A stretch of DNA of 64,000 bases, from contig NC_014654.1 of the NCBI RefSeq assembly GCF_000166415.1, forward strand, positions 1,116,001 to 1,180,000, written 5' to 3'. The DNA comes from Halanaerobium hydrogeniformans (GTDB lineage Bacteria > Bacillota > Halanaerobiia > Halanaerobiales > Halanaerobiaceae). Both the position numbers and the translations under genes were made by a program. This document shows positions 18,512 through 28,348 of this stretch, in pieces (position 1 is the stretch's first letter; each line of letters starts with the position of its first letter). Under the pieces are notes generated by a model. The model ran no database searches and was not told where the DNA came from. It was given only the letters and a program-made list of their open reading frames with translations.

Positions 18512-19780
18512 ATGGAGATAGACGGTTTTTTAGATGAAAAAACAGCCCTTAAATATATTAAAGAAGAAACAGAAATATTATCTGATGCAGAAAAAATCAA
18601 TGTTAAAATCATGGACTCCAACAGCCTCAGTTTTGATGGACTGGCCAATAATTTGCTCGTTATAGGAGATGAAAATACAAAAAAACGCTTTATTCTCAAA
18701 CAGATGCTGCCATATGTAAGGGCAGCTATCCAAGAGAGTGATTTAAAAATATCTCTACCTGAAGAGAGAATTTATTCTGAATACTGTTCCCTAAAACTTT
18801 TTAAAGGTATCTGTCCTGATTATGTGGCAGAAGCCTATTTTTTGGATGCAGAAAATAATATTATAATTTTTGAATATATAGATGATATGGAGCTTTTAAG
18901 AAGTGAATTTATCAGGCAAAACAGACATGAACATCTGGCTGAACAGATAGCTATTTTTCTGGCCAGAATTCACTTTTTTACTTCAGGCTTTTTTTTAGAT
19001 AAAAAAACACTAAAGGATCTGCAGGATTTCTTTGCAAAATCTGACTCAGTTAAATCCTGGGATAAATTCATTTTCACCGGCTCTATACTTGAAGCAGAAG
19101 ATAAGCAAATGAATCCCTATCTGGAAGAGAAAATAACTGAATTTAGAGAAGATGAAATTGTCAGAGAAAAGGTAAAAGAAATCAGAGCTATATTTATGAA
19201 CAAAAAAGAGTCGCTAACTCATGGTGACTTTCACACCTCAAATATTTTTATTAACAAAGAAAAAATTATGGCTTTTGATACTGAGTATTCTAATTACACT
19301 CCGGCCTCTTTTGACTTAGGAAGACTTTTGGCCAATGTAATTTTAAATTATGCTTCTTTAATTTCTAAAGATTACAGTCAGGATAAGAAAGAATATCAGG
19401 TCTATCTTTTAAACTTAATTGAGGCTATATTTAATCATTATCAAAAAGAATATTCAAAACTGCTAAAAAAGCACTGTAATTATGGGCAGCAATATCTTGA
19501 TGATTATTTTGATAATTATTTATTCGAATTAATCTCGCTTATTGCCTGTACAATTATTACCAGGATTTATGATGGTGGTATCTGTCTGGACTTTGCACTA
19601 ATTGAAGATTTAAAAAAGCGAGCTCTTGGCCAGGAATTTATTATAGATCTTGCTAAAATACTTTTAGAAAAAAATAAAGAATTTAAAAATATTGAAGCGG
19701 TCACAGAATGTATTTCTAATTTTGCAGTTGAATTTCAGTTGACTAAAATAGTTGAAAATACTCTGGCTGAAATAACTTAA
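18512..19780 (+). CDS. Methylthioribose-kinase-like phosphotransferase
   Basis: This 422-residue protein is of the aminoglycoside-phosphotransferase/choline-kinase superfamily, not PduX (a GHMP-type threonine kinase). The catalytic loop LTHGDFHTSNIF and the DTEYSNYTPASFDLGR metal loop most resemble 5-methylthioribose kinase (MtnK). It lies between pduV and pduL with its own GGAGGCG ribosome site, inside the operon. An inferred role is phosphorylation of 5-deoxyribose or methylthioribose, for example salvage of the 5'-deoxyadenosine released when adenosylcobalamin is damaged. The substrate is not shown by the sequence. Confidence 0.65.
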   Translation: MEIDGFLDEKTALKYIKEETEILSDAEKINVKIMDSNSLSFDGLANNLLVIGDENTKKRFILKQMLPYVRAAIQESDLKISLPEERIYSEYCSLKLFKGICPDYVAEAYFLDAENNIIIFEYIDDMELLRSEFIRQNRHEHLAEQIAIFLARIHFFTSGFFLDKKTLKDLQDFFAKSDSVKSWDKFIFTGSILEAEDKQMNPYLEEKITEFREDEIVREKVKEIRAIFMNKKESLTHGDFHTSNIFINKEKIMAFDTEYSNYTPASFDLGRLLANVILNYASLISKDYSQDKKEYQVYLLNLIEAIFNHYQKEYSKLLKKHCNYGQQYLDDYFDNYLFELISLIACTIITRIYDGGICLDFALIEDLKKRALGQEFIIDLAKILLEKNKEFKNIEAVTECISNFAVEFQLTKIVENTLAEIT

Positions 19781-19819
19781 GCTGTGAAAAATATAAAATT
19801 ATTAAAAAGAGGTGGTTTA

Positions 19820-20467
19820 ATGTCCAATCCAGAACTCAGACAAAAAATAAAAGAGATAATTGCAGAAATGAATCTAGGCGAAAAAAAAGAAGAAAAAATA
19901 ATTCCCATCGAAGCATCAGGAAGACATGTTCATTTAAGTAGAGAAGATGTTGACCGCCTATTTGCAGAGGGTTATGAGCTAACTCCTAAAAGAGAGCTTT
20001 CTCAACCGGGACAGTATTTAGCTGAAGAAAAGATAAGATTAATTGGGCCCAAAGGAATTATCGAAAGAGCTGCTATTTTGGGACCTGCCCGCTCAGATAC
20101 TCAGGTAGAACTTTCAAGAACAGATGCCGTAAAATTAGGTATAGATCCACCTTTAAGATTTTCAGGTAATGTAGAGGGTAGTGCTTCTATCTTTTTAGGC
20201 TCTGCAAAAGATATAGTTAAACTTGAAGAAGGAGTAATAATAGCTAAAAATCATATACATATGCAGCCTCAGGATGCCGAAAGACTTGGAGTAGAAGATG
20301 GAGAAAAGGTCAATGTAGAGGCTATGACCGAAAGACCCATTATCTTTAAGAATGTTTTGATCAGGGTTAATGAAGCTTACAGGTTAAGCATGCATATCGA
20401 TTATGATGAGGCAAATGCCTGTATGCACAAGCCTGGAGATAAGGGAAAAATTATAAAATTAGATTAA
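19820..20467 (+). CDS. pduL: Phosphate propanoyltransferase
   Basis: PduL converts propionyl-CoA to propionyl phosphate and regenerates CoA within the compartment. It is 215 residues from ATG 19820 after AGAGGTGG. The N-terminal helix MSNPELRQKIKEIIAEMNLG is an encapsulation peptide. Zinc-ligand motifs of the two-barrel PduL fold are visible: SGRHVHLSREDVDRLF, NHIHMQPQDAERLG and MHIDYDEANAC. It is the last gene of the operon, whereas in Salmonella pduL is internal. Confidence 0.94.
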   Translation: MSNPELRQKIKEIIAEMNLGEKKEEKIIPIEASGRHVHLSREDVDRLFAEGYELTPKRELSQPGQYLAEEKIRLIGPKGIIERAAILGPARSDTQVELSRTDAVKLGIDPPLRFSGNVEGSASIFLGSAKDIVKLEEGVIIAKNHIHMQPQDAERLGVEDGEKVNVEAMTERPIIFKNVLIRVNEAYRLSMHIDYDEANACMHKPGDKGKIIKLD

Positions 20468-20484
20468 AAATTAGAGTTAATTAT

Positions 20485-20511
20485 GACTGGATAAAATCCA
20501 GTCTTTTTTTT
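20485..20511 (+). terminator. Rho-independent terminator of the Pdu operon
   Basis: A perfect 8-bp stem GACTGGAT / ATCCAGTC with a 3-base loop is followed by eight T residues. It lies 17 bases after the pduL stop. Confidence 0.92.
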
Positions 20512-20557
20512 ATTCTACAATAATTTTAAAAAATAATTTTTAAAAAAGAGGATTTGA

Positions 20558-20614
20558 AAGAATTATTTAGAATTATCTAATAGAAATGATAATTATTATT
20601 AAGAAATAATTCTT
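20558..20614. repeat. Nested inverted repeats upstream of the DUF2177 gene
   Basis: Outer arms AAGAATTATTT (20558-20568) and AAATAATTCTT (20604-20614) are a perfect 11-bp inverted repeat. Inner arms AATTATC (20571-20577) and GATAATT (20588-20594) nest inside. It ends about 17 bases before the TTG start and may be an operator or mRNA hairpin. The extreme A/T content makes a chance origin possible. Confidence 0.4.
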
Positions 20615-20631
20615 GAAAAGGAGGTTTTAAA

Positions 20632-21033
20632 TTGTTATATTTAAAAAGTTATTTAATTGCACTTGTTATTTTCTTTGGCATAGATATCATCTGGCTGGGA
20701 ACAATAGCTCAGGACTTATATCAAAAACATCTCGGCTTTTTATTAAAAGAAAATTTTAATATGACTGCTGCAGTAATATTCTATTTATTTTTTATTGCCG
20801 GCCTGGTCTTTTTTGTTATCAATCGAGCTCTTTATTTATCCAGCTGGCAGTATGCCCTTTTTGCAGGGATGTTCTTTGGCTTTATAACTTATGCTACCTA
20901 TGATATGACAAATTTAGCAACAATTAAGGATTGGCCGGTGATTATTACGGTAATTGATATAGTCTGGGGTTCTATTTTGTGTGGTGCAACTTCATTATTC
21001 ACTTATTTAGTTATTAGCCATTTTAACTTGTAA
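20632..21033 (+). CDS. DUF2177 family membrane protein
   Basis: This 133-residue protein has four hydrophobic segments (about 5-25, 45-65, 75-95 and 105-128). The conserved FFGIDIIWLG near the start and FAGMFFGFITYATYDMTNLAT in the centre are the DUF2177 signature. Its function is unknown. The start is TTG 20632, eight bases after AAAAGGAGG. It is a single-gene unit. Confidence 0.85.
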   Translation: MLYLKSYLIALVIFFGIDIIWLGTIAQDLYQKHLGFLLKENFNMTAAVIFYLFFIAGLVFFVINRALYLSSWQYALFAGMFFGFITYATYDMTNLATIKDWPVIITVIDIVWGSILCGATSLFTYLVISHFNL

Positions 21034-21060
21034 AAGCAAAAAAAATATAAATTCAAAAAA

Positions 21061-21084
21061 GAGGTCCAGAATATTCCGGACCTC
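21061..21084. terminator. Hairpin terminator between convergent genes
   Basis: This is a near-perfect 24-bp palindrome (GAGGTCC...GGACCTC, centre GAATATTC). On the minus strand it is followed by a T-run (the A-run at 21053-21060 on plus), so it should terminate the minus-strand gene at 21116. It may also stop the DUF2177 transcript. Confidence 0.75.
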
Positions 21085-21115
21085 TGCTTAATTTAAATAA
21101 TAAATATTTTTAAGG

Positions 21116-21877
21116 TTAATTCAACAAATCACTTAAATCTATAACTATGTCAAAACTTATATCTATGCCATTATCTCCATTATCCTTATCATCAGTTTCT
21201 TCTTGATAGCTATCCTTAAGTTGATTATAAACTGTATCTCTAGAGAGCTGTCTACCTCTACCATCTTTTTCGATTGTCCTACCGGTATTTAAATCTTCAT
21301 AATAATAGCTATATCTATTATTCGCATAATGAACACTTAGTTTTTCGATCATATTTCTATCACGGTAATAGTAATCATATTTTTGATTTTTTATTTCGAT
21401 TTCTTCTTCAATTCCACGAGCTTCATTATAGTAGCTGTAATCATAATTATGTCCTCTTACCCTTACAGTTTCTATTCCACCCCTATATTCGCGCTTTCTA
21501 TCATAATTTTTGCTGTCAAGTGGGGGTAAAAGCCTCTGTCGTCTGGGATGTCTCAGACGGATTAAAGAATCTTCAAATATTACGTTTGGCAGCCAAAAAT
21601 TATGGTGATACTTTTCTAAACTGCCTCTTTTTCTGGCAATATTTCTTAATTCATGTTCGTCTAACTTCTGACCTGAATTACTATAATAATATAATATTAG
21701 GCTGATATCTTTACTGTTAAGGCCTAATCTGGCCATATATTCTAAATCATCAGAATCTAAATCATTATAAACTCTAATTAATAATTCTTTATCAAAATCA
21801 TCCAGTGAAACAGCAGCAGCTGTAACAGATAGCAAAAAGATTATTATAAGAGTTAAACTGAGAACTTTTTTAGGCAT
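21116..21877 (-). CDS. Secreted hypothetical protein, Tyr-rich
   Basis: I do not recognise a family. The protein is 253 residues from the ATG at 21877 (MPKKVLSLTL), which follows GAAAGGGGTG on the minus strand. An 18-residue upstream extension of the frame lacks a ribosome site. A signal peptide (LTLIIIFLLSVTAAA) is followed by DDFDKELLIRVYNDLDSDDLEYMARLG. A region of repeated Tyr-rich beta-like strands (NYDYSYYNEARG, KYDYYYRDR, RYSYYYEDLNTG) suggests a YD-repeat-like sheet. The acidic C-terminus ends in alternating Asp/Ile. It is probably exported. Confidence 0.7.
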   Translation of the reverse strand: MPKKVLSLTLIIIFLLSVTAAAVSLDDFDKELLIRVYNDLDSDDLEYMARLGLNSKDISLILYYYSNSGQKLDEHELRNIARKRGSLEKYHHNFWLPNVIFEDSLIRLRHPRRQRLLPPLDSKNYDRKREYRGGIETVRVRGHNYDYSYYNEARGIEEEIEIKNQKYDYYYRDRNMIEKLSVHYANNRYSYYYEDLNTGRTIEKDGRGRQLSRDTVYNQLKDSYQEETDDKDNGDNGIDISFDIVIDLSDLLN

Positions 21878-22029
21878 AAATAACACCCCTTTCAATATCT
21901 TTATTATACTTCTTAACAACAAAAAAAGCAAAGTAAATTATATTATTTACTAAAATTCATATTCTCTTCATATTTGCCCTCTATAATGAACTCAGAAGTT
22001 AAAAAACAACAAATAAGGAGTGGAAATTA

Positions 22030-22581
22030 ATGAAAAAAATATTAACAGGAATTTTAGTACTCACATTTTTAATTACAGCTTTTGTAGGAATGACTTATGC
22101 ACAAAGACCTATGGACAGGGCAAATCATGATCAACAACAGGGTAGTATGCATTTTGCCCAGCGAGGATCTGGCATGGGTTATCAGGAGCTTGATTTAACA
22201 GAATCTCAAGTTGATAGAATGTCTGAACTGCGAGAAGAATTTTATAACGATACTTCCGAGTTGAGAGAAGAGTTAAGAGCTTTAAACTGGGAAATGAGAG
22301 ATTTAAGGTTAAAAAATGCTTCTAATGCAGAGATTGGTGCAGTTCAGGATGAAATAGATGTTATAGTTTCTCAATTAAATGAAAAGCGGTTGGAAATGCA
22401 GGAAAACATGCATAACTATTTAACTGATGAGCAGCTTGCTTTAATAGAAGAGGCCAGAAGTGATTTTCAGGGACGCTTTGGCGAAAAAGGTTCTAGAACA
22501 AATAGAGGATCTTCTTCAAGCACAGGCAGATTTCATCAGAGAGGAAGTAGAGGCAGTTTTGGTTTTGGCTGGTGTCACTAA
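22030..22581 (+). CDS. Spy/CpxP-like LTxxQ-motif exported protein
   Basis: This 183-residue protein has a signal peptide (residues 1-24, cleavage near TYAQ). Two LTxxQ-type repeats are visible: DLTESQVDRMSELREEF and YLTDEQLALIEEARSDF, flanking a long helical Glu/Arg-rich middle. This is the pattern of the Spy/CpxP/zinc-resistance-associated family, which act as envelope chaperones or metal sensors. The tail is Gly/Ser/Arg-rich. The ribosome site is AAGGAGTGG. It is monocistronic with its own terminator. Confidence 0.8.
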   Translation: MKKILTGILVLTFLITAFVGMTYAQRPMDRANHDQQQGSMHFAQRGSGMGYQELDLTESQVDRMSELREEFYNDTSELREELRALNWEMRDLRLKNASNAEIGAVQDEIDVIVSQLNEKRLEMQENMHNYLTDEQLALIEEARSDFQGRFGEKGSRTNRGSSSSTGRFHQRGSRGSFGFGWCH

Positions 22582-22627
22582 TTCATTAAAATAATATTTT
22601 AGCTTAAAATAAATTGATTTTCATGAT

Positions 22628-22658
22628 ATACTCCCTTTCGTAGAGGGAGTATTTTTTT
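22628..22658 (+). terminator. Rho-independent terminator
   Basis: The 9-bp stem ATACTCCCT / AGGGAGTAT with a 7-base loop is followed by seven T residues, 46 bases after the Spy-like gene. Confidence 0.92.
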
Positions 22659-22813
22659 GCCTATTTATTGGTATTTTTTTATACTACTGGCAGGATTACA
22701 GGCTTAGATATTGAATTTAATAATAAGACTAAATTTAGTTTCAATTTTTTTACTTATAAAGGTTCTATTTTAAAATTGGCATTAGAAAAATATTATTGGA
22801 AGTTGGTGGTTAG

Positions 22814-23338
22814 ATGGAAGATATTTATAAATACAATAACTATAAATTTTTAGAAAAGATATATACTCCAATTGGGGTTGTAATGGCAGGATTTTTACTT
22901 CAGTTTTTTTATCCGGTAAGTGGTTTTTACCAGAGAATTTTAATATATTTAATTTATCTCTCAGCAGTATTACTTTTTGTTTTTGATGCGGTTCCAGTTA
23001 TTATCAGCACCTATCATGCCTGGAATAAGGAAGTTATACTCACAAATAGGACCGTAATAGTTAAAGGTGATGATCATCTTGATACCAGAATAGTTAACCG
23101 CAGTGATATCAATAAGATAGTTTTTAGAAGTCTAAGGGGAGAAGATGTAGAAATACCTCACTACAGAAAACTGGAAGATATAGACGATGATATTTATGAA
23201 TTACCGGGCAGAAAATTTGTGATAGATTATGATTCAGATACCGCAGAAGATAATCTTGTTATTTATTTAGAACTTCTACCAGAGGAGTTTGTAGAGGAAT
23301 TTATTAAATGGTATCAGGCCGATGTCGCTTTAAAATAA
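22814..23338 (+). CDS. Hypothetical membrane protein
   Basis: No family is recognised. The 174-residue protein has two hydrophobic segments (about 17-35 and 41-60) and then a soluble C-terminal half. The pattern EVILTNRTVIVKGDDHLDTRIVNRSDINKIVF resembles a bacterial PH-like (YdbT/DUF304-type) domain after two membrane helices. The C-terminus is acidic. The ribosome site (TTGGTGG) is modest. It is followed directly by a terminator. Confidence 0.65.
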   Translation: MEDIYKYNNYKFLEKIYTPIGVVMAGFLLQFFYPVSGFYQRILIYLIYLSAVLLFVFDAVPVIISTYHAWNKEVILTNRTVIVKGDDHLDTRIVNRSDINKIVFRSLRGEDVEIPHYRKLEDIDDDIYELPGRKFVIDYDSDTAEDNLVIYLELLPEEFVEEFIKWYQADVALK

Positions 23339-23344
23339 TTATTT

Positions 23345-23387
23345 AACCTCATTGAGATTATTCATATTTATCTTAATGAGGTTTTTG
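23345..23387 (+). terminator. Rho-independent terminator
   Basis: AACCTCATT at 23345-23353 pairs with AATGAGGTT at 23375-23383, then a short T-run follows. It is 6 bases after the preceding stop codon. Confidence 0.85.
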
Positions 23388-23607
23388 TCTTTGCCTGGCA
23401 TTAATATTTGTTGGTCAGTGAAAGTCTGATGCAGGAATTAAAAAGATTCTGAAGAAATATAAACTTGAAAGCAGAACATAAGCTGCTGCTACCAAAAGTG
23501 TTAATTTAATGGCAGCTTATTTACTATATTAACTGAACAAATTAATCTTGATTAGATTCACAATAACTAAATTTAGATATAAATGCAAGAAAGGCTGTGA
23601 TTATTTT

Positions 23608-24642
23608 ATGTTAAGAAAGATTGAAATTGTTCTGCCTGTTGATGAGACTGATAAATTAAATGAAATTCTGGAGGATTACAAAGTTCTGGATAGATATAAA
23701 ATTTCTCTACTTGAAGACCAGGCACTCTATTTAATCACCCTAAATGTTGAAAATAGTGGACCTTTATTGGATGAGCTAGAAAAGAAGCTGGCTTTTGCTG
23801 AAGGTTTTAGATTAAATATGCTTGAGGTTGAGGCTACTATTCCAGCTGTAAAAATGGATGAAGAAAATGATAAAAACAAAGAGGACAAGGCAATTACAGA
23901 TGAAGATTCTGAGGATAAGCAAGAAGAGAAAAATAATACAACTAAAGGTTTAAGCCGGCAGGAACTTTATGCTGATATCTCTGATTCTATAAACTTAAAT
24001 AGCAATTATATATTGATGTGTCTCCTTTCGGCTATTGTTGCCTCCAGTGGTGTTATGCTGGATAATGTTGCTGTTATAGTTGGTGCCATGGTAATTGCCC
24101 CATTACTGGGTCCAAATGTCGGTATGGCTCTAGCCTCAACCCTAGGAGATATGGAATTAGGCAAGAAAGCTTTTAAGGCATCTTTATATGGTGCCGGAGC
24201 TGCTCTCATAGTTGCTCTAATAGCTGGATTAATTTTAAGTCCTGATAGCTGGCCCCATGAGGTTTTAAGCAGGACCAGTGTTGGCTGGGGAGATATTACT
24301 CTGGCTCTGGCCTCAGGAAGTGCAGGAACCCTGGCCTTTACAACTGGAACCTCTGGCGCTGTAATTGGAGTCATGATTGCTGTGGCCTTGATGCCACCCC
24401 TGGTGGTTGTTGGAATATTATTAGGAGCAGGGGAGTTTTTTATGGCTGGTGGTGCTTTAATGTTATTTATCTCAAATATAATCTGTATAAATTTAGCCGG
24501 AGTTTTAACCTTTATCTATCAAGGGATTAGGCCTTTAAACTGGTGGGAAGAAAAAAAAGCTGAAACTTCAAGGAAGTACAGCCTTTTTCTCTGGATAGTT
24601 TTATTGACTCTATTAATTATCGGAATTCAGTTTATTCAATAG
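23608..24642 (+). CDS. DUF389 / TIGR00341 family membrane protein
   Basis: This 344-residue protein starts at ATG 23608; an upstream in-frame TTG lacks a ribosome site. The cytoplasmic N-terminal domain (residues 1-95) is followed by an acidic linker (DEENDKNKEDKAITDEDSED). The hydrophobic DUF389 domain then has about six membrane segments with the conserved SAIVASSGVMLDNVAVIVGAM / APLLGPNVGMALA core. Function is unknown in the family; some members are proposed transporters. It sits alone, so context does not help. Confidence 0.85.
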   Translation: MLRKIEIVLPVDETDKLNEILEDYKVLDRYKISLLEDQALYLITLNVENSGPLLDELEKKLAFAEGFRLNMLEVEATIPAVKMDEENDKNKEDKAITDEDSEDKQEEKNNTTKGLSRQELYADISDSINLNSNYILMCLLSAIVASSGVMLDNVAVIVGAMVIAPLLGPNVGMALASTLGDMELGKKAFKASLYGAGAALIVALIAGLILSPDSWPHEVLSRTSVGWGDITLALASGSAGTLAFTTGTSGAVIGVMIAVALMPPLVVVGILLGAGEFFMAGGALMLFISNIICINLAGVLTFIYQGIRPLNWWEEKKAETSRKYSLFLWIVLLTLLIIGIQFIQ

Positions 24643-24884
24643 GAGATCAGATCTATATCAGAAGCAGAAAAGCGCCCAAAAGGACTTCTTTTTAACTTTA
24701 CATAGCCAATAATGAATGTGCTAAACTCAACAAATATAACTGTTAGCCATATTCCACGGAGAGGTTCACTAATTACGGTTTCCCATAATTCCCTTGCAGC
24801 TTCTCCATTTCTTTCAATAACTCTAGCTAATCTTATATCTCTAGGGGTGTCTAGCCAAATTTTAAAATCATAAAACAATTCCAA
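24636..24884 (-). pseudogene. Possible remnant of a small P-loop kinase gene
   Basis: This 82-codon minus-strand frame contains IWLDTPRDIRLARVIERNGEAARELWE, which resembles the lid/substrate region of uridine-kinase-like AAA proteins (LDTP...RLAR...RDG...W). No Walker A or N-terminal half is found upstream on the minus strand, and the C-terminal part does not fit the family. It is either a decayed 5'-truncated gene or a chance match. Its 3' end overlaps the DUF389 stop region. Confidence 0.35.
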
Positions 24885-25037
24885 TCAACTCATTAAATTC
24901 TATAATTAAATAGCTGGCAACTTAAAGTTCATGAGGACAAGTTGAAAACAACTCTTATCTCAGGACGATGTAGTCTTAAAACAACACAGTAATGGTTATT
25001 ATTACTGTTATGACAGTGTTTATAACAAAAAATATTG

Positions 25038-25066
25038 TTGACAAAAAAATAATAATAGTATATAAT
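25038..25066 (+). promoter_or_regulatory. Strong sigma-A-type promoter
   Basis: TTGACA (25038-25043), an exact 17-base spacer, and TATAAT (25061-25066) form a consensus promoter for the DUF4198 gene. A Fur-like box begins 10 bases after the -10. Confidence 0.9.
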
Positions 25067-25075
25067 ATATTTGAG

Positions 25076-25094
25076 ATTGAGAATCGTTTTCAAT
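25076..25094 (+). promoter_or_regulatory. Fur-like operator
   Basis: The 19-bp imperfect inverted repeat ATTGAGAA-TCG-TTTTCAAT resembles iron-regulator (Fur) boxes of the form TGAGAATnATTTTCA. It covers the expected transcription start of the consensus promoter, a placement typical of metal-dependent repression. A related metalloregulator could bind instead. Confidence 0.6.
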
Positions 25095-25232
25095 TAAAAT
25101 ATAAATAAAGAGGAGATGATGCTGTTAATAGATGTTATTTTTTTTAGTATATATTACATAAATATCTAAAATTGTTATATTAAGGCTTTGAGTTTTAAGT
25201 TAGTTTTTTTAAAAAAAAGGGGTGTTATATTA

Positions 25233-25985
25233 ATGTTTAAAAAGAAATATCTAATTATTTTTGCTTTCACTGTATTGCTGGTCAGTCTTTTCTCAGTTTC
25301 TGCTCTGGCTCACTGCGTCTGGGTGGAGCTTCCAGCCCAAACTTCTCTAAATGAAGAATTTGAAGTTTATGCTTACTATGCAGATCCGGATGATCCGATG
25401 GAAGAGAGAGATCAAACAGAACTTGAGTTATATATTATTGATTACAATGGAGAAAAACACGATTTGGATTTAAGTGAACAAAGTACATATTATAATGCAT
25501 TTGCCGAATTATCAACTGCAGGAGAATATAATTTTATTCTTGAGAGGGAGCCCAACAGATACCGCTTACAGCAGATTAGAGACTTCGGGAAGGCAGTAAC
25601 TCTGGCCGGTAATAGTTTAAATTATTCATATGAGCCAGCTGGGATTCCTTTAGAAGTACAGCTTGTAGAAAGCAATACTATTAATGAGCAGGAAGTAGAA
25701 ATTGTTGTCGAAGTTTTATATGAGGGTGAAGTAATAACTGATAGTGATATAGAACTATTTCAATCCCTGGAAAAGGGTTTAATAACCGAAGCTGGAATGG
25801 CTTATGAAGAAATTGCAGATGTAGAAATTTCTGAAGATGGCAGAACTACCTTTGCTATCAATCCAGAATATAATTATGTTTTTGAAACAGATTATCATGT
25901 AGATGCCGATCAGGTAGAAGATACTGGCTTTTTTATTAGGGAAGTAAGATTTAGATCAACACTATTTTTACCTGCCGCTCAATAA
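25233..25985 (+). CDS. Exported DUF4198-family protein, probably metal-related
   Basis: This 250-residue protein starts at ATG 25233 after AAAGGGGTG. The signal peptide (YLIIFAFTVLLVSLFSVSALA) is followed by mature AHCVWVELP, the usual DUF4198 start with a His near the new N-terminus. Beta-rich sequence continues to the end. DUF4198/NikM-like proteins are linked to nickel, cobalt or other metal uptake, and the Fur-like box supports metal regulation. No transporter gene is adjacent. A 100-base leader lies between promoter and start. Confidence 0.7.
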   Translation: MFKKKYLIIFAFTVLLVSLFSVSALAHCVWVELPAQTSLNEEFEVYAYYADPDDPMEERDQTELELYIIDYNGEKHDLDLSEQSTYYNAFAELSTAGEYNFILEREPNRYRLQQIRDFGKAVTLAGNSLNYSYEPAGIPLEVQLVESNTINEQEVEIVVEVLYEGEVITDSDIELFQSLEKGLITEAGMAYEEIADVEISEDGRTTFAINPEYNYVFETDYHVDADQVEDTGFFIREVRFRSTLFLPAAQ

Positions 25986-26009
25986 TATAAGAGGTATTTA
26001 AAAATATTC

Positions 26010-26041
26010 AATTAACCCTCCATTAATCCGGGGGGTTAATT
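26010..26041 (+). terminator. Hairpin, possible terminator
   Basis: AATTAACCC (26010-26018) pairs with GGGTTAATT (26033-26041). There is no immediate T-run; a T-run appears about 20 bases later at 26060. Termination is therefore only likely. Confidence 0.45.
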
Positions 26042-26105
26042 AGATTAATAGCTGTTAAATATTTTTTTAACTTAGTTTATACATAAAGTAGAGAGGAGTT
26101 TTAAT

Positions 26106-26396
26106 ATGAGTATTATGATAGTTGGTGCAGATAATTTAGGTTCAATTGAAAACAATGTTAGAAAACTCGGTTTTGATCAAATCACTCATCTTCCGGGAAG
26201 AAAAAAATCTAAATTCAGGAATTTTAATATTCCCGGAGAGGTAGATGTTGTCTTAGTAATGACTGATTATATTAACCATGCAGTTATGAAAAAAGTCAAA
26301 AGAGCAGCAAAAGCTAAAGACTTAAATGTTATCTATGCTCGCAGAAGCTGGGCTGCTATTTATAAAAAACTGCAGAGAAAAAGAATTGTAAATTAA
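26106..26396 (+). CDS. DUF2325 family protein
   Basis: This 96-residue protein matches DUF2325, a small Rossmann-like domain: SIMIVGADNLGSIENNVRKLGF at the start, DVVLVMTDYINHAVMKKVKRAAKA in the middle, and IYARRSW near the end. Function is unknown. The ribosome site GAGAGGAG precedes ATG 26106. It appears monocistronic. Confidence 0.82.
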   Translation: MSIMIVGADNLGSIENNVRKLGFDQITHLPGRKKSKFRNFNIPGEVDVVLVMTDYINHAVMKKVKRAAKAKDLNVIYARRSWAAIYKKLQRKRIVN

Positions 26397-26542: not shown

Positions 26543-27868
26543 ATGTCAAAATGGAAACTGTCTAAATATACAGTAGTTTTTAGATGTGAATCCGGTGATG
26601 CGATCTTTCATAACAGTTTTATGGGTGCAATAGCTGTAATCCCCTCTAATGAATTTTCCAGGCTAGAAGAAGATCTTTATCAAGAGATTGATGAAAAAGA
26701 TTTTGCAGATAATTGCTTAAAGGAGCTTTGTGAAAATGGATTTTTCTTTCCCAGCCAGATCGATGAAGCAGACTTTGTAGAGAAAATTTTAAAAAGAGAA
26801 AATAGATCTAAGAACTTAGATCTTGTTATACTCCCTCATGAAAATTGTAATTTCAGGTGTGATTATTGTTATGAAACCCATCAGGGTGGTATTATGGAAA
26901 CAGAAATTGTTGAAGGCCTTAAGTTGTTCACCTATAATAAAGTTGCAGAATACAGCAGCCTTAATACCAGGTGGTTTGGTGGGGAACCTCTATTAGCAAG
27001 GGATATTATCTATCAACTGTCGGACTCTTTTCTGGAAAGCTGTGAGCGAGCGGGAATTCCTTATAGTAGTCATATGACAACCAATGCCTATTTATTAACG
27101 CCAGAAGTAGTAGATGAACTTTTAAAGCGAAAGATCAATAAATTTCAAATCACTTTTGATGGTCCTGAAATTATTCATGATAGTACAAGGAAGTTAGCAG
27201 GAGGCGGGAAGACCTTTAAAGTGATTCTTAATAATTTATTAGCGATGAAAAATAGGGATCTTGATTTTTATGTTTCGCTGAGAGTTAATTTTAATAATGC
27301 ATCTTTAGTATTAATGGAAGATTTGTTTCGATTAATTTCAGAAAATTTCGGCAATGATCCCAGGTTTGGTTTATATTTTAGACCGATTGGCAAATATGGT
27401 GGGCCAAATGATGAAAAGCTTGAAATCTGTCAGCCGGAGTATGCCAAACTAATTGAAATGGAACTTACTGAGGAATACAGTCAGTTTGGTTATTTAGATA
27501 AGTTAGTTAAAAAGAGTCTGCAGCCTCATGGTCAGGTCTGTTATGCTGCAAAGGAGTCTTCTCTGATCATTGGTGCTGACGGAACTATTTATAAGTGTTC
27601 GGTGGCTTTTGAAGACCCGAAAAATCATGTCGGTAAATTAAAGCCTGATGGCACAATGGCAATTGATAAGTCGCGTTGGAATTTATGGGTAGCCAATGAA
27701 GATAGTGAAGCCAGCAAATGTATTTCATGTCCGGTCAAGCCAATCTGCCAGGGCAAGTATTGTCCAAGATATACTATTCGAAAGAAGGAGCCTATCTGTG
27801 CTATGAAGGCAAAAGAGTATGAGAAACTAGTTCAAATTGCCAGCAGTTATGATGGAATGCTCCTCTAA
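26543..27868 (+). CDS. Radical SAM/SPASM peptide-modifying enzyme
   Basis: This 441-residue enzyme is probably a RiPP maturase. Residues 1-85 form an N-terminal domain that could be a peptide-recognition (RRE/PqqD-like) region. The radical SAM cluster CNFRCDYCYE gives Cys 102, 106 and 109 in CxxxCxxC form, followed by the WFGGEPLL motif and SSHMTTNAYLL strand. The C-terminal SPASM region is Cys-rich (CYAAKESS, GADGTIYKCS, CISCPVKPICQGKYCPRY), expected to hold auxiliary 4Fe-4S clusters. The next gene on the same transcript encodes a Cys-rich small protein, the likely substrate. An anaerobic sulfatase-maturase role is possible, but no sulfatase is nearby. Confidence 0.85.
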   Translation: MSKWKLSKYTVVFRCESGDAIFHNSFMGAIAVIPSNEFSRLEEDLYQEIDEKDFADNCLKELCENGFFFPSQIDEADFVEKILKRENRSKNLDLVILPHENCNFRCDYCYETHQGGIMETEIVEGLKLFTYNKVAEYSSLNTRWFGGEPLLARDIIYQLSDSFLESCERAGIPYSSHMTTNAYLLTPEVVDELLKRKINKFQITFDGPEIIHDSTRKLAGGGKTFKVILNNLLAMKNRDLDFYVSLRVNFNNASLVLMEDLFRLISENFGNDPRFGLYFRPIGKYGGPNDEKLEICQPEYAKLIEMELTEEYSQFGYLDKLVKKSLQPHGQVCYAAKESSLIIGADGTIYKCSVAFEDPKNHVGKLKPDGTMAIDKSRWNLWVANEDSEASKCISCPVKPICQGKYCPRYTIRKKEPICAMKAKEYEKLVQIASSYDGMLL

Positions 27869-27951
27869 GTTTTTAGGGGGTGATTGCTAAATTAAACAAT
27901 TGTTAGGGCATTAACTATTGGGCCGTTTAAAGTTTAAAAGGAGGAAATCTG

Positions 27952-28272
27952 ATGGATAAGAAAAAGTTACAGGATATTAAAGAAGCTAAGAAAAAAATAG
28001 TTGAGGGTTCATTGACTATCTGGAATGCCAGGTTAGATGCTTTAGCAGAAAGAGGAAATATTAGAGATTTAATTAATTATATTGGTGGACCAGTTGTTGA
28101 TGATTCCTGGACAAATATTTGTGGTTGTCCCGAGCCTGATTCTCCTGTTTGTTTTTGTTCATGTCCACCTGACAATTCTGAAGATCTTTATTATCATATC
28201 AACGAAATGGGAAGAAAGATTAATCTAATTTTAGAGAATATAGATGATCTAAGGAATAACTTTAAAAAATAA
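27952..28272 (+). CDS. Cys-rich small protein, candidate RiPP precursor
   Basis: No known family is recognised. The 106-residue protein has a Lys-rich helical N-terminus (about 1-45), then a Gly-Gly-Pro, then a compact Cys-rich patch WTNICGCPEPDSPVCFCSC with Cys at 57, 59, 67, 69 and 71. Two Cys-Pro-x-Asp-type stretches (CPEPD, CPPD) recall the Cys-x-x-x-Asp motifs of thioether-linked freyrasin. A helical follower (about 78-106) ends the protein. It lies 83 bases after the radical SAM gene with its own AAAAGGAGGAAA ribosome site and shares its terminator. Precursor status is inferred from pairing and composition. Confidence 0.6.
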   Translation: MDKKKLQDIKEAKKKIVEGSLTIWNARLDALAERGNIRDLINYIGGPVVDDSWTNICGCPEPDSPVCFCSCPPDNSEDLYYHINEMGRKINLILENIDDLRNNFKK

Positions 28273-28324
28273 GAAGATAAAAGAAATAAAAAAAGCTTAA
28301 AAAACTGAAGATTGATATTTATTC

Positions 28325-28348
28325 ACCTGCTAATAGCAGGTTTTTTTT
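28325..28348 (+). terminator. Rho-independent terminator of the radical SAM/peptide operon
   Basis: ACCTGC (28325-28330) and GCAGGT (28336-28341) form a stem with a TAATA loop, followed by eight T residues. Confidence 0.9.

Follow-up and report, generated by a model that had tools for sequence, protein, structure and literature searches.

We report a two-gene unit of the salt-lake bacterium Halanaerobium hydrogeniformans in which the gene of a radical SAM/SPASM enzyme is followed, after a gap of 83 nt, by the gene of a 106-aa Cys-rich protein and then by a terminator. We think it likely that this is a minimal, horizontally mobile cassette for post-translational modification, where the enzyme would modify the Cys core of the leader-bound small protein, most likely by forming thioethers. 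The unit lies in a stretch of 64,000 nucleotides, which we call the window, in a genome composed of one contig of 2,613,117 bases. The coordinates 26543-28348, given for the locus in the initial annotation, were exact, and its features are the following, all on the + strand:

26543..27868, +, radical SAM/SPASM enzyme of 441 aa, putative maturase (PF04055, TIGR04085; orthologues 67% and 63% identical in the genomes G923 and G892)
26543..26752, +, RRE-like domain at the enzyme's N-terminus, spanning roughly residues 1-70, which would bind the leader (AlphaFold2 model, CteB match, RRE fold order in PMC12710340)
26846..26869, +, CxxxCxxC motif of the radical SAM cluster, enzyme residues 102-109 (sequence; invariant in 16 relatives)
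27539..27799, +, cysteines of the SPASM auxiliary clusters, C333 to C419, spaced C-x2-C-x5-C-x4-C (sequence; same spacing in relatives)
27940..27944, +, GGAGG, a strong ribosome-binding site (Shine-Dalgarno) for the small gene (sequence)
27952..28272, +, Cys-rich small protein of 106 aa, putative substrate/precursor (coding score; homologues beside the orthologous enzyme; pN << pS)
27952..28083, +, conserved leader, small protein residues 1-44 (three-homologue alignment; residues 15-31, KIVEGSLTIWNARLDAL, invariant)
28120..28164, +, Cys core C57-x-C59-x7-C67-x-C69-x-C71 (five Cys invariant in three homologues)
28180..28269, +, C-terminal helical follower, small protein residues 77-106, with conserved INEM (alignment; low-confidence model; coiled-coil-like profile hits)
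28325..28341, +, intrinsic terminator ending the two-gene unit, a 7-bp stem and then a T-run (terminator search)

The terminator after the small gene had already been proposed and was recovered by the search, and none was found between the two genes; the small gene had also been described as directly following the enzyme gene, which is right for the gene order, but not for the spacing, given the gap between them. It was in two genomes of another class where orthologues of the enzyme were found, 67% (G923) and 63% (G892) identical to it, and 3' of each one lies a homologue of the small protein, after gaps of 85 nt (G923) and 106 nt (G892). These homologues, of 102 aa (G923) and 103 aa (G892), gave E values of 5e-26 and 8e-25 among the loci compared and share 53% identity with the window protein. 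The two genes are thus adjacent and in the same order at all three loci known (window, G923, and G892), and small-protein homologues lacking the enzyme neighbour, whose occurrence had been suggested as a check on the pairing, did not turn up. Apart from the pair, no neighbour is common to the three loci, the surroundings in G923 and G892 differing from each other and from the window. Between G923 and G892, the small gene shows a pN of 0.13 against a pS of 0.75, and is therefore under strong purifying selection; the corresponding values of the enzyme gene are 0.17 and 0.81. As judged from these comparisons, the gene pair is a real conserved unit, beyond chance, because of the same-order orthologues in two other genomes and the purifying selection on the small gene.

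In the small protein, the cysteines at positions 57, 59, 67, 69, and 71 form the CxC-x7-CxCxC pattern within 15 residues that had been noticed from the start, and all five are invariant in the three homologues, within the conserved frame I-C-G-C-(spacer)-S-P-[VI]-C-x-C-x-C-P. The expectation that the Cys patch would be the conserved part was thus borne out, and the leader and the C-terminal helix are conserved as well, the former with 17 consecutive invariant residues (15-31) and the latter with its INEM stretch. Where the window protein has PEPD, both homologues have Gly-rich sequence; its Asn55 is Asp in both, and each of them carries one extra downstream Cys. The small ORF has a codon score of 0.28, where the in-frame median is 0.31 (5th-95th percentiles 0.12-0.52) and the off-frame maximum is 0.04; two other stop-to-stop frames in the window likewise attain five Cys in 15 residues. 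Neither Pfam nor NCBIfam has a match to this protein, its C-terminal part gives coiled-coil-like profile hits, and its structure model, which places the Cys patch between long helices, has a pLDDT of 59.5 and was kept out of the fold searches owing to this low confidence. Given the orthologous same-order pairs, the conserved leader, cysteines and follower, and the pN far below pS, the initial pairing of the enzyme with a Cys-rich substrate is supported at the level of sequence.

The description of the enzyme as a radical SAM protein with CxxxCxxC, GGEP, and a Cys-rich SPASM end holds in full: the radical SAM domain scores 53.1 bits against a cut-off of 29.5 (PF04055, Pfam profile search) and the SPASM domain 40.9 bits against 27 (TIGR04085, NCBIfam profile search), the cluster motif is C102-x3-C106-x2-C109, GGEP stands at 146-149, and seven cysteines follow in the C-terminal part (C333, C352, C393, C396, C402, C407, and C419). 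The C-x2-C-x5-C-x4-C spacing of the SPASM region is found also in the Deinococcus, G358, G923, and G892 enzymes and in most Bacilli relatives. An AlphaFold2 model built with 20 sequences (pLDDT 85.7, pTM 0.85) begins with strands at residues 3-33 followed by helices at 35-64, which we compared with the fold order of the RRE (PMC12710340). Among the PDB matches that reach this N-terminal domain, the best is CteB (5wgg/5why, Z of about 25, model residues 7-437), and TigE (8vpo, Z 23) also extends into it; the sulfatase maturase anSME gives a marginally higher Z (26.5), with an alignment that starts only at residue 90. By fold alone, with the predicted strands-then-helices N-terminus and the CteB alignment from residue 7, the enzyme would carry an RRE. 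Since CteB is a thioether-forming maturase and the best full-length structural match, we count it in favour of a thioether maturase.

We suggest that the conserved N-terminal leader of the 106-aa protein is bound by the enzyme, probably via the RRE-like domain, that the radical SAM cluster would generate the 5'-deoxyadenosyl radical, and that the auxiliary SPASM iron-sulphur clusters would hold the Cys thiolates. The CxC-x(6-7)-CxCxC core would then be modified, most likely by S-C (thioether) crosslinks to carbons of the peptide as in ranthipeptides, and the C-terminal helix may act as a follower or be retained in the product, which may or may not be cleaved later. Besides the conserved pair, the enzyme domains, and the CteB match, the proposal is favoured by the nearest named NCBIfam models being those of Cys-rich-peptide maturases and by the short Cys peptides that often adjoin related enzymes. 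Against this proposal we count that the enzyme is below the cut-offs of all the peptide-maturase models listed, that no adjoining peptide is recognisable in 9 of the 13 Bacilli relatives, that the leader is unlike those of the wider group, that the small protein occurs at three loci only, and that no processing or export gene is adjacent. This last point agrees with the initial annotation, as at none of the three loci (window, G923, and G892) does a gene for a transporter or exporter, a protease, or immunity lie next to the pair. A GG-type leader cleavage at “IGG” was also considered and rejected, given that a search for C39 peptidases found none in the window's genome but gave matches in control genomes, and that GGPVVDD, the possible cleavage site, is absent from both homologues.

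A modified protein that stays intact is to be taken seriously as an alternative to a cleaved peptide, given the conservation of both leader and follower and the absence of processing genes nearby, and we hold it to be somewhat improbable that the enzyme matures the whole small protein into a crosslinked Cys loop between two helices, working as an intracellular redox, metal, or binding module. The conservation of both the N-terminal and the C-terminal helices speaks for it, as do the lack of a protease or exporter at the three loci, the failure to find a C39 peptidase in the genome, and the model with the patch between long helices; however, a conserved leader and follower are equally expected if they merely serve to direct the enzyme, confidence in the model is low, and RiPPs can be processed by unlinked proteases. 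A more specific version, with the CxC-x(6-7)-CxCxC loop of the intact protein stitched into several thioether rings by an enzyme that needs both leader and follower, and with the module mobile between classes, we regard as unlikely. Clusters of the CxC and CGCDC kinds commonly serve as metal ligands, and the cysteines here are fixed while the spacer residues vary, as would also be seen in an unmodified metal-binding protein with a metallothionein-like loop, the enzyme being functionally separate or installing an epimerisation or methylation. That is a less likely and, in our view, rather remote explanation, since the pair moves between classes as a unit with no other shared neighbour, and the SPASM and RRE-like domains of the enzyme are typical of peptide maturases.

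With regard to the acceptor of the proposed thioether, the nearest known chemistry is the bond of NxxcA from Cys23 to the beta-carbon of Asn20 and that of freyrasin from Cys to the beta-carbon of Asp (PMC8326336). It is conceivable, though doubtful, that the Asn or Asp lying shortly before the first Cys pair serves as acceptor (Asn55 for Cys59 or for Cys57), giving a beta-thioether related to the Asn-x2-Cys of NxxcA. In 14 of 18 peptides of the enzyme group, against 3.9 expected, the first Cys is preceded by an Asn at most 3 residues away; this figure is post hoc, as is that for peptide adjacency given below, because the motifs were picked after viewing the peptides. The window protein has Asn55 and the homologues have Asp at this place, both kinds of residue being known beta-thioether acceptors (PMC8326336), and N-x3-C recurs in the Deinococcus NIYKC and in the G358 NCHNC. 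In the window protein, however, the spacings are Asn55-x-Cys57 and Asn55-x3-Cys59 instead of the exact N-x2-C, the upstream Asn taken in this protein alone is not significant (P 0.19-0.27), and the remaining cysteines are without such an acceptor. The other acceptor proposed, a freyrasin-like Cys-Asp motif in CPEPD, did not survive the comparison. Cys57-x3-Glu61 and Cys59-x3-Asp63 are present in the window protein and PapB accepts Cys-Xn-Asp/Glu (PMC9413430), but the PEPD is not kept by the homologues, two such Cys-x3-Asp/Glu matches are unremarkable on shuffling (P 0.15-0.23), and the enzyme reaches only 105.2 of the 340 bits of the PapB model (NF047865), making a freyrasin-type Cys-x3-Asp thioether peptide with a PapB-like enzyme very improbable.

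The proposed cassette resembles several known systems without coinciding with any of them. It has in common with the SCIFF/CteB-type ranthipeptides a Cys-rich small protein and a radical SAM/SPASM enzyme bearing an RRE by fold, but the enzyme scores 67.5 bits against a cut-off of 425 for the SCIFF maturase (TIGR03974), and instead of the six Cys in about 45 residues of SCIFF the precursor, of 106 aa with a C-terminal helix, has five Cys within 15 residues. The named NCBIfam models with the highest scores are those of two Cys-rich-peptide maturases, TIGR04463 (187.1 bits against 525) and Clo7bot (181 bits against 600), aligned over nearly the whole length of the enzyme and both below cut-off, as in the G923 orthologue (189.7/525 and 173.3/600 bits); in contrast to these maturases, the window enzyme stands on a separate tree branch, has a last SPASM motif of C-x4-C in place of C-x3-C, and has a neighbour unrelated in sequence to their substrates. 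With PapB/freyrasin the likeness consists of Cys beside acidic residues and the assumed thioether chemistry, whereas the small proteins have no conserved Cys-x3-Asp. As to NxxcA/NxxcB, the peptides of the enzyme group repeatedly show an Asn or Asp shortly ahead of a Cys, although the spacing in the window protein differs, the comparison having been made at the peptide level. The initial idea of a new RiPP therefore stands in part: a new precursor family, with its core between leader and follower, together with an unnamed enzyme group, is plausible, but within a known kind of system and chemistry. With only two genes, the cassette would add both to radical-SAM peptide and protein chemistry; its three natural variants, which have the same five cysteines but differ in their spacers, allow the crosslink rules to be tested directly, and such a self-contained pair is convenient for expression in a laboratory host.

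As far as sequence relationships tell, the enzyme belongs to this unnamed group of radical SAM/SPASM enzymes. In a tree that includes Bacilli, the window, G923, and G892 enzymes are grouped with a support of 100/100 and are nested among enzymes of Bacilli, Deinococcus, Streptomyces, rhizobia, and phage contigs, apart from Clo7bot and TIGR04463; the fork uniting the whole group has a moderate support of 85/79, compared with 100/98 in an earlier tree without Bacilli. The group enzymes carry a P-[IV]-G-x-x-GG-x-ND-like motif, most of the full-length ones have the C-x2-C-x5-C-x4-C spacing, and many adjoin short peptides with Asn-x(1-3)-Cys cores, such as NILCGC, NINCVAGC, NGNCSGC, NGGCQC, NGTCGIGC, NIYKC, NCHNC, and NGNCHIC. 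An ORF of this kind lies within 450 bp on the sense strand at 11 of 18 loci, the window included, and on the antisense strand at none of the 18. Peptide adjacency is common and not universal in the group, given that 9 of the 13 Bacilli relatives have no recognisable adjoining peptide. Profile comparison of the leader with the Streptomyces, Deinococcus, and rhizobial precursors gave no homology (E 0.1, four columns).

Within the 59 genomes of the window's class no homologue of the small protein was found, nor in plasmids or viral contigs, and 398 genomes of the phylum gave chance-level matches only, the strongest of which, when read through, revealed no comparable frame carrying the Cys pattern; the degenerate CGCPEPD pattern had 28 matches in viral contigs. 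The true homologues surfaced only via the enzyme search in another class. Likewise, no orthologue of the enzyme is present in the 58 remaining genomes of this class, where the matches are 26-29% identical and the two that were placed on trees fell in other branches; when genome contigs were scanned with the enzyme, a single relative (31%) came up, in a Bacteroidales MAG. Synteny with the genus relative G020 extends from about window position 18512 to 26396 (DUF2325 gene) and ends before the cassette, and in that genome the downstream deacetylase gene sits on another contig. Because of the lack of an orthologue in the class, the synteny break in G020, and the differing neighbours in G923 and G892, the two genes were probably transferred horizontally as one unit. 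The segment 26396-26543, where synteny with G020 stops just past the DUF2325 gene, bounds on the left a lineage-specific stretch whose first element is the cassette.

Several other loci of related enzymes are worth describing. Nine Bacilli loci (L202, L203, and L205-L211) have radical SAM/SPASM relatives, 35-38% identical, with differing neighbours and no recognisable peptide gene near, and these enzymes are possibly orphan maturases with unlinked substrates. At nine Streptomyces, rhizobial, acetic-acid-bacterial, and viral-contig loci (L023, L024, L084, L087, L089, L108, L109, L111, and L112), the enzymes lack both the RRE-like domain at the N-terminus and the final SPASM cysteines, and they adjoin short Asn-x2-Cys peptides, many of which have the leader motif D..G+VVI.dPE in common; these peptides appear to form a so far unnamed family, predicted to carry thioethers. 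On two Deinococcus plasmids (L022:1-6308 and L025:1-6307), a related enzyme adjoins an LLM-class oxidoreductase gene, lantibiotic-dehydratase-like genes, and two small Cys-ending peptides (VNIYKCGASAL and IDIYCRS), an unusual mixed peptide-modification cluster. Another Halanaerobium species (G025, L037:5952-12077) has a cluster of a different kind, where a 97-aa precursor-like protein ending in GFCTIMYFG accompanies a radical SAM/SPASM enzyme 26% identical to that of the window and an ABC transporter whose N-terminus appears C39-like. Finally, a viral contig (L116:4278-4785) carries four tandem copies of a Cys peptide of 34-37 aa (MK.IKEA...YC.GCD) downstream of a radical SAM/SPASM gene.
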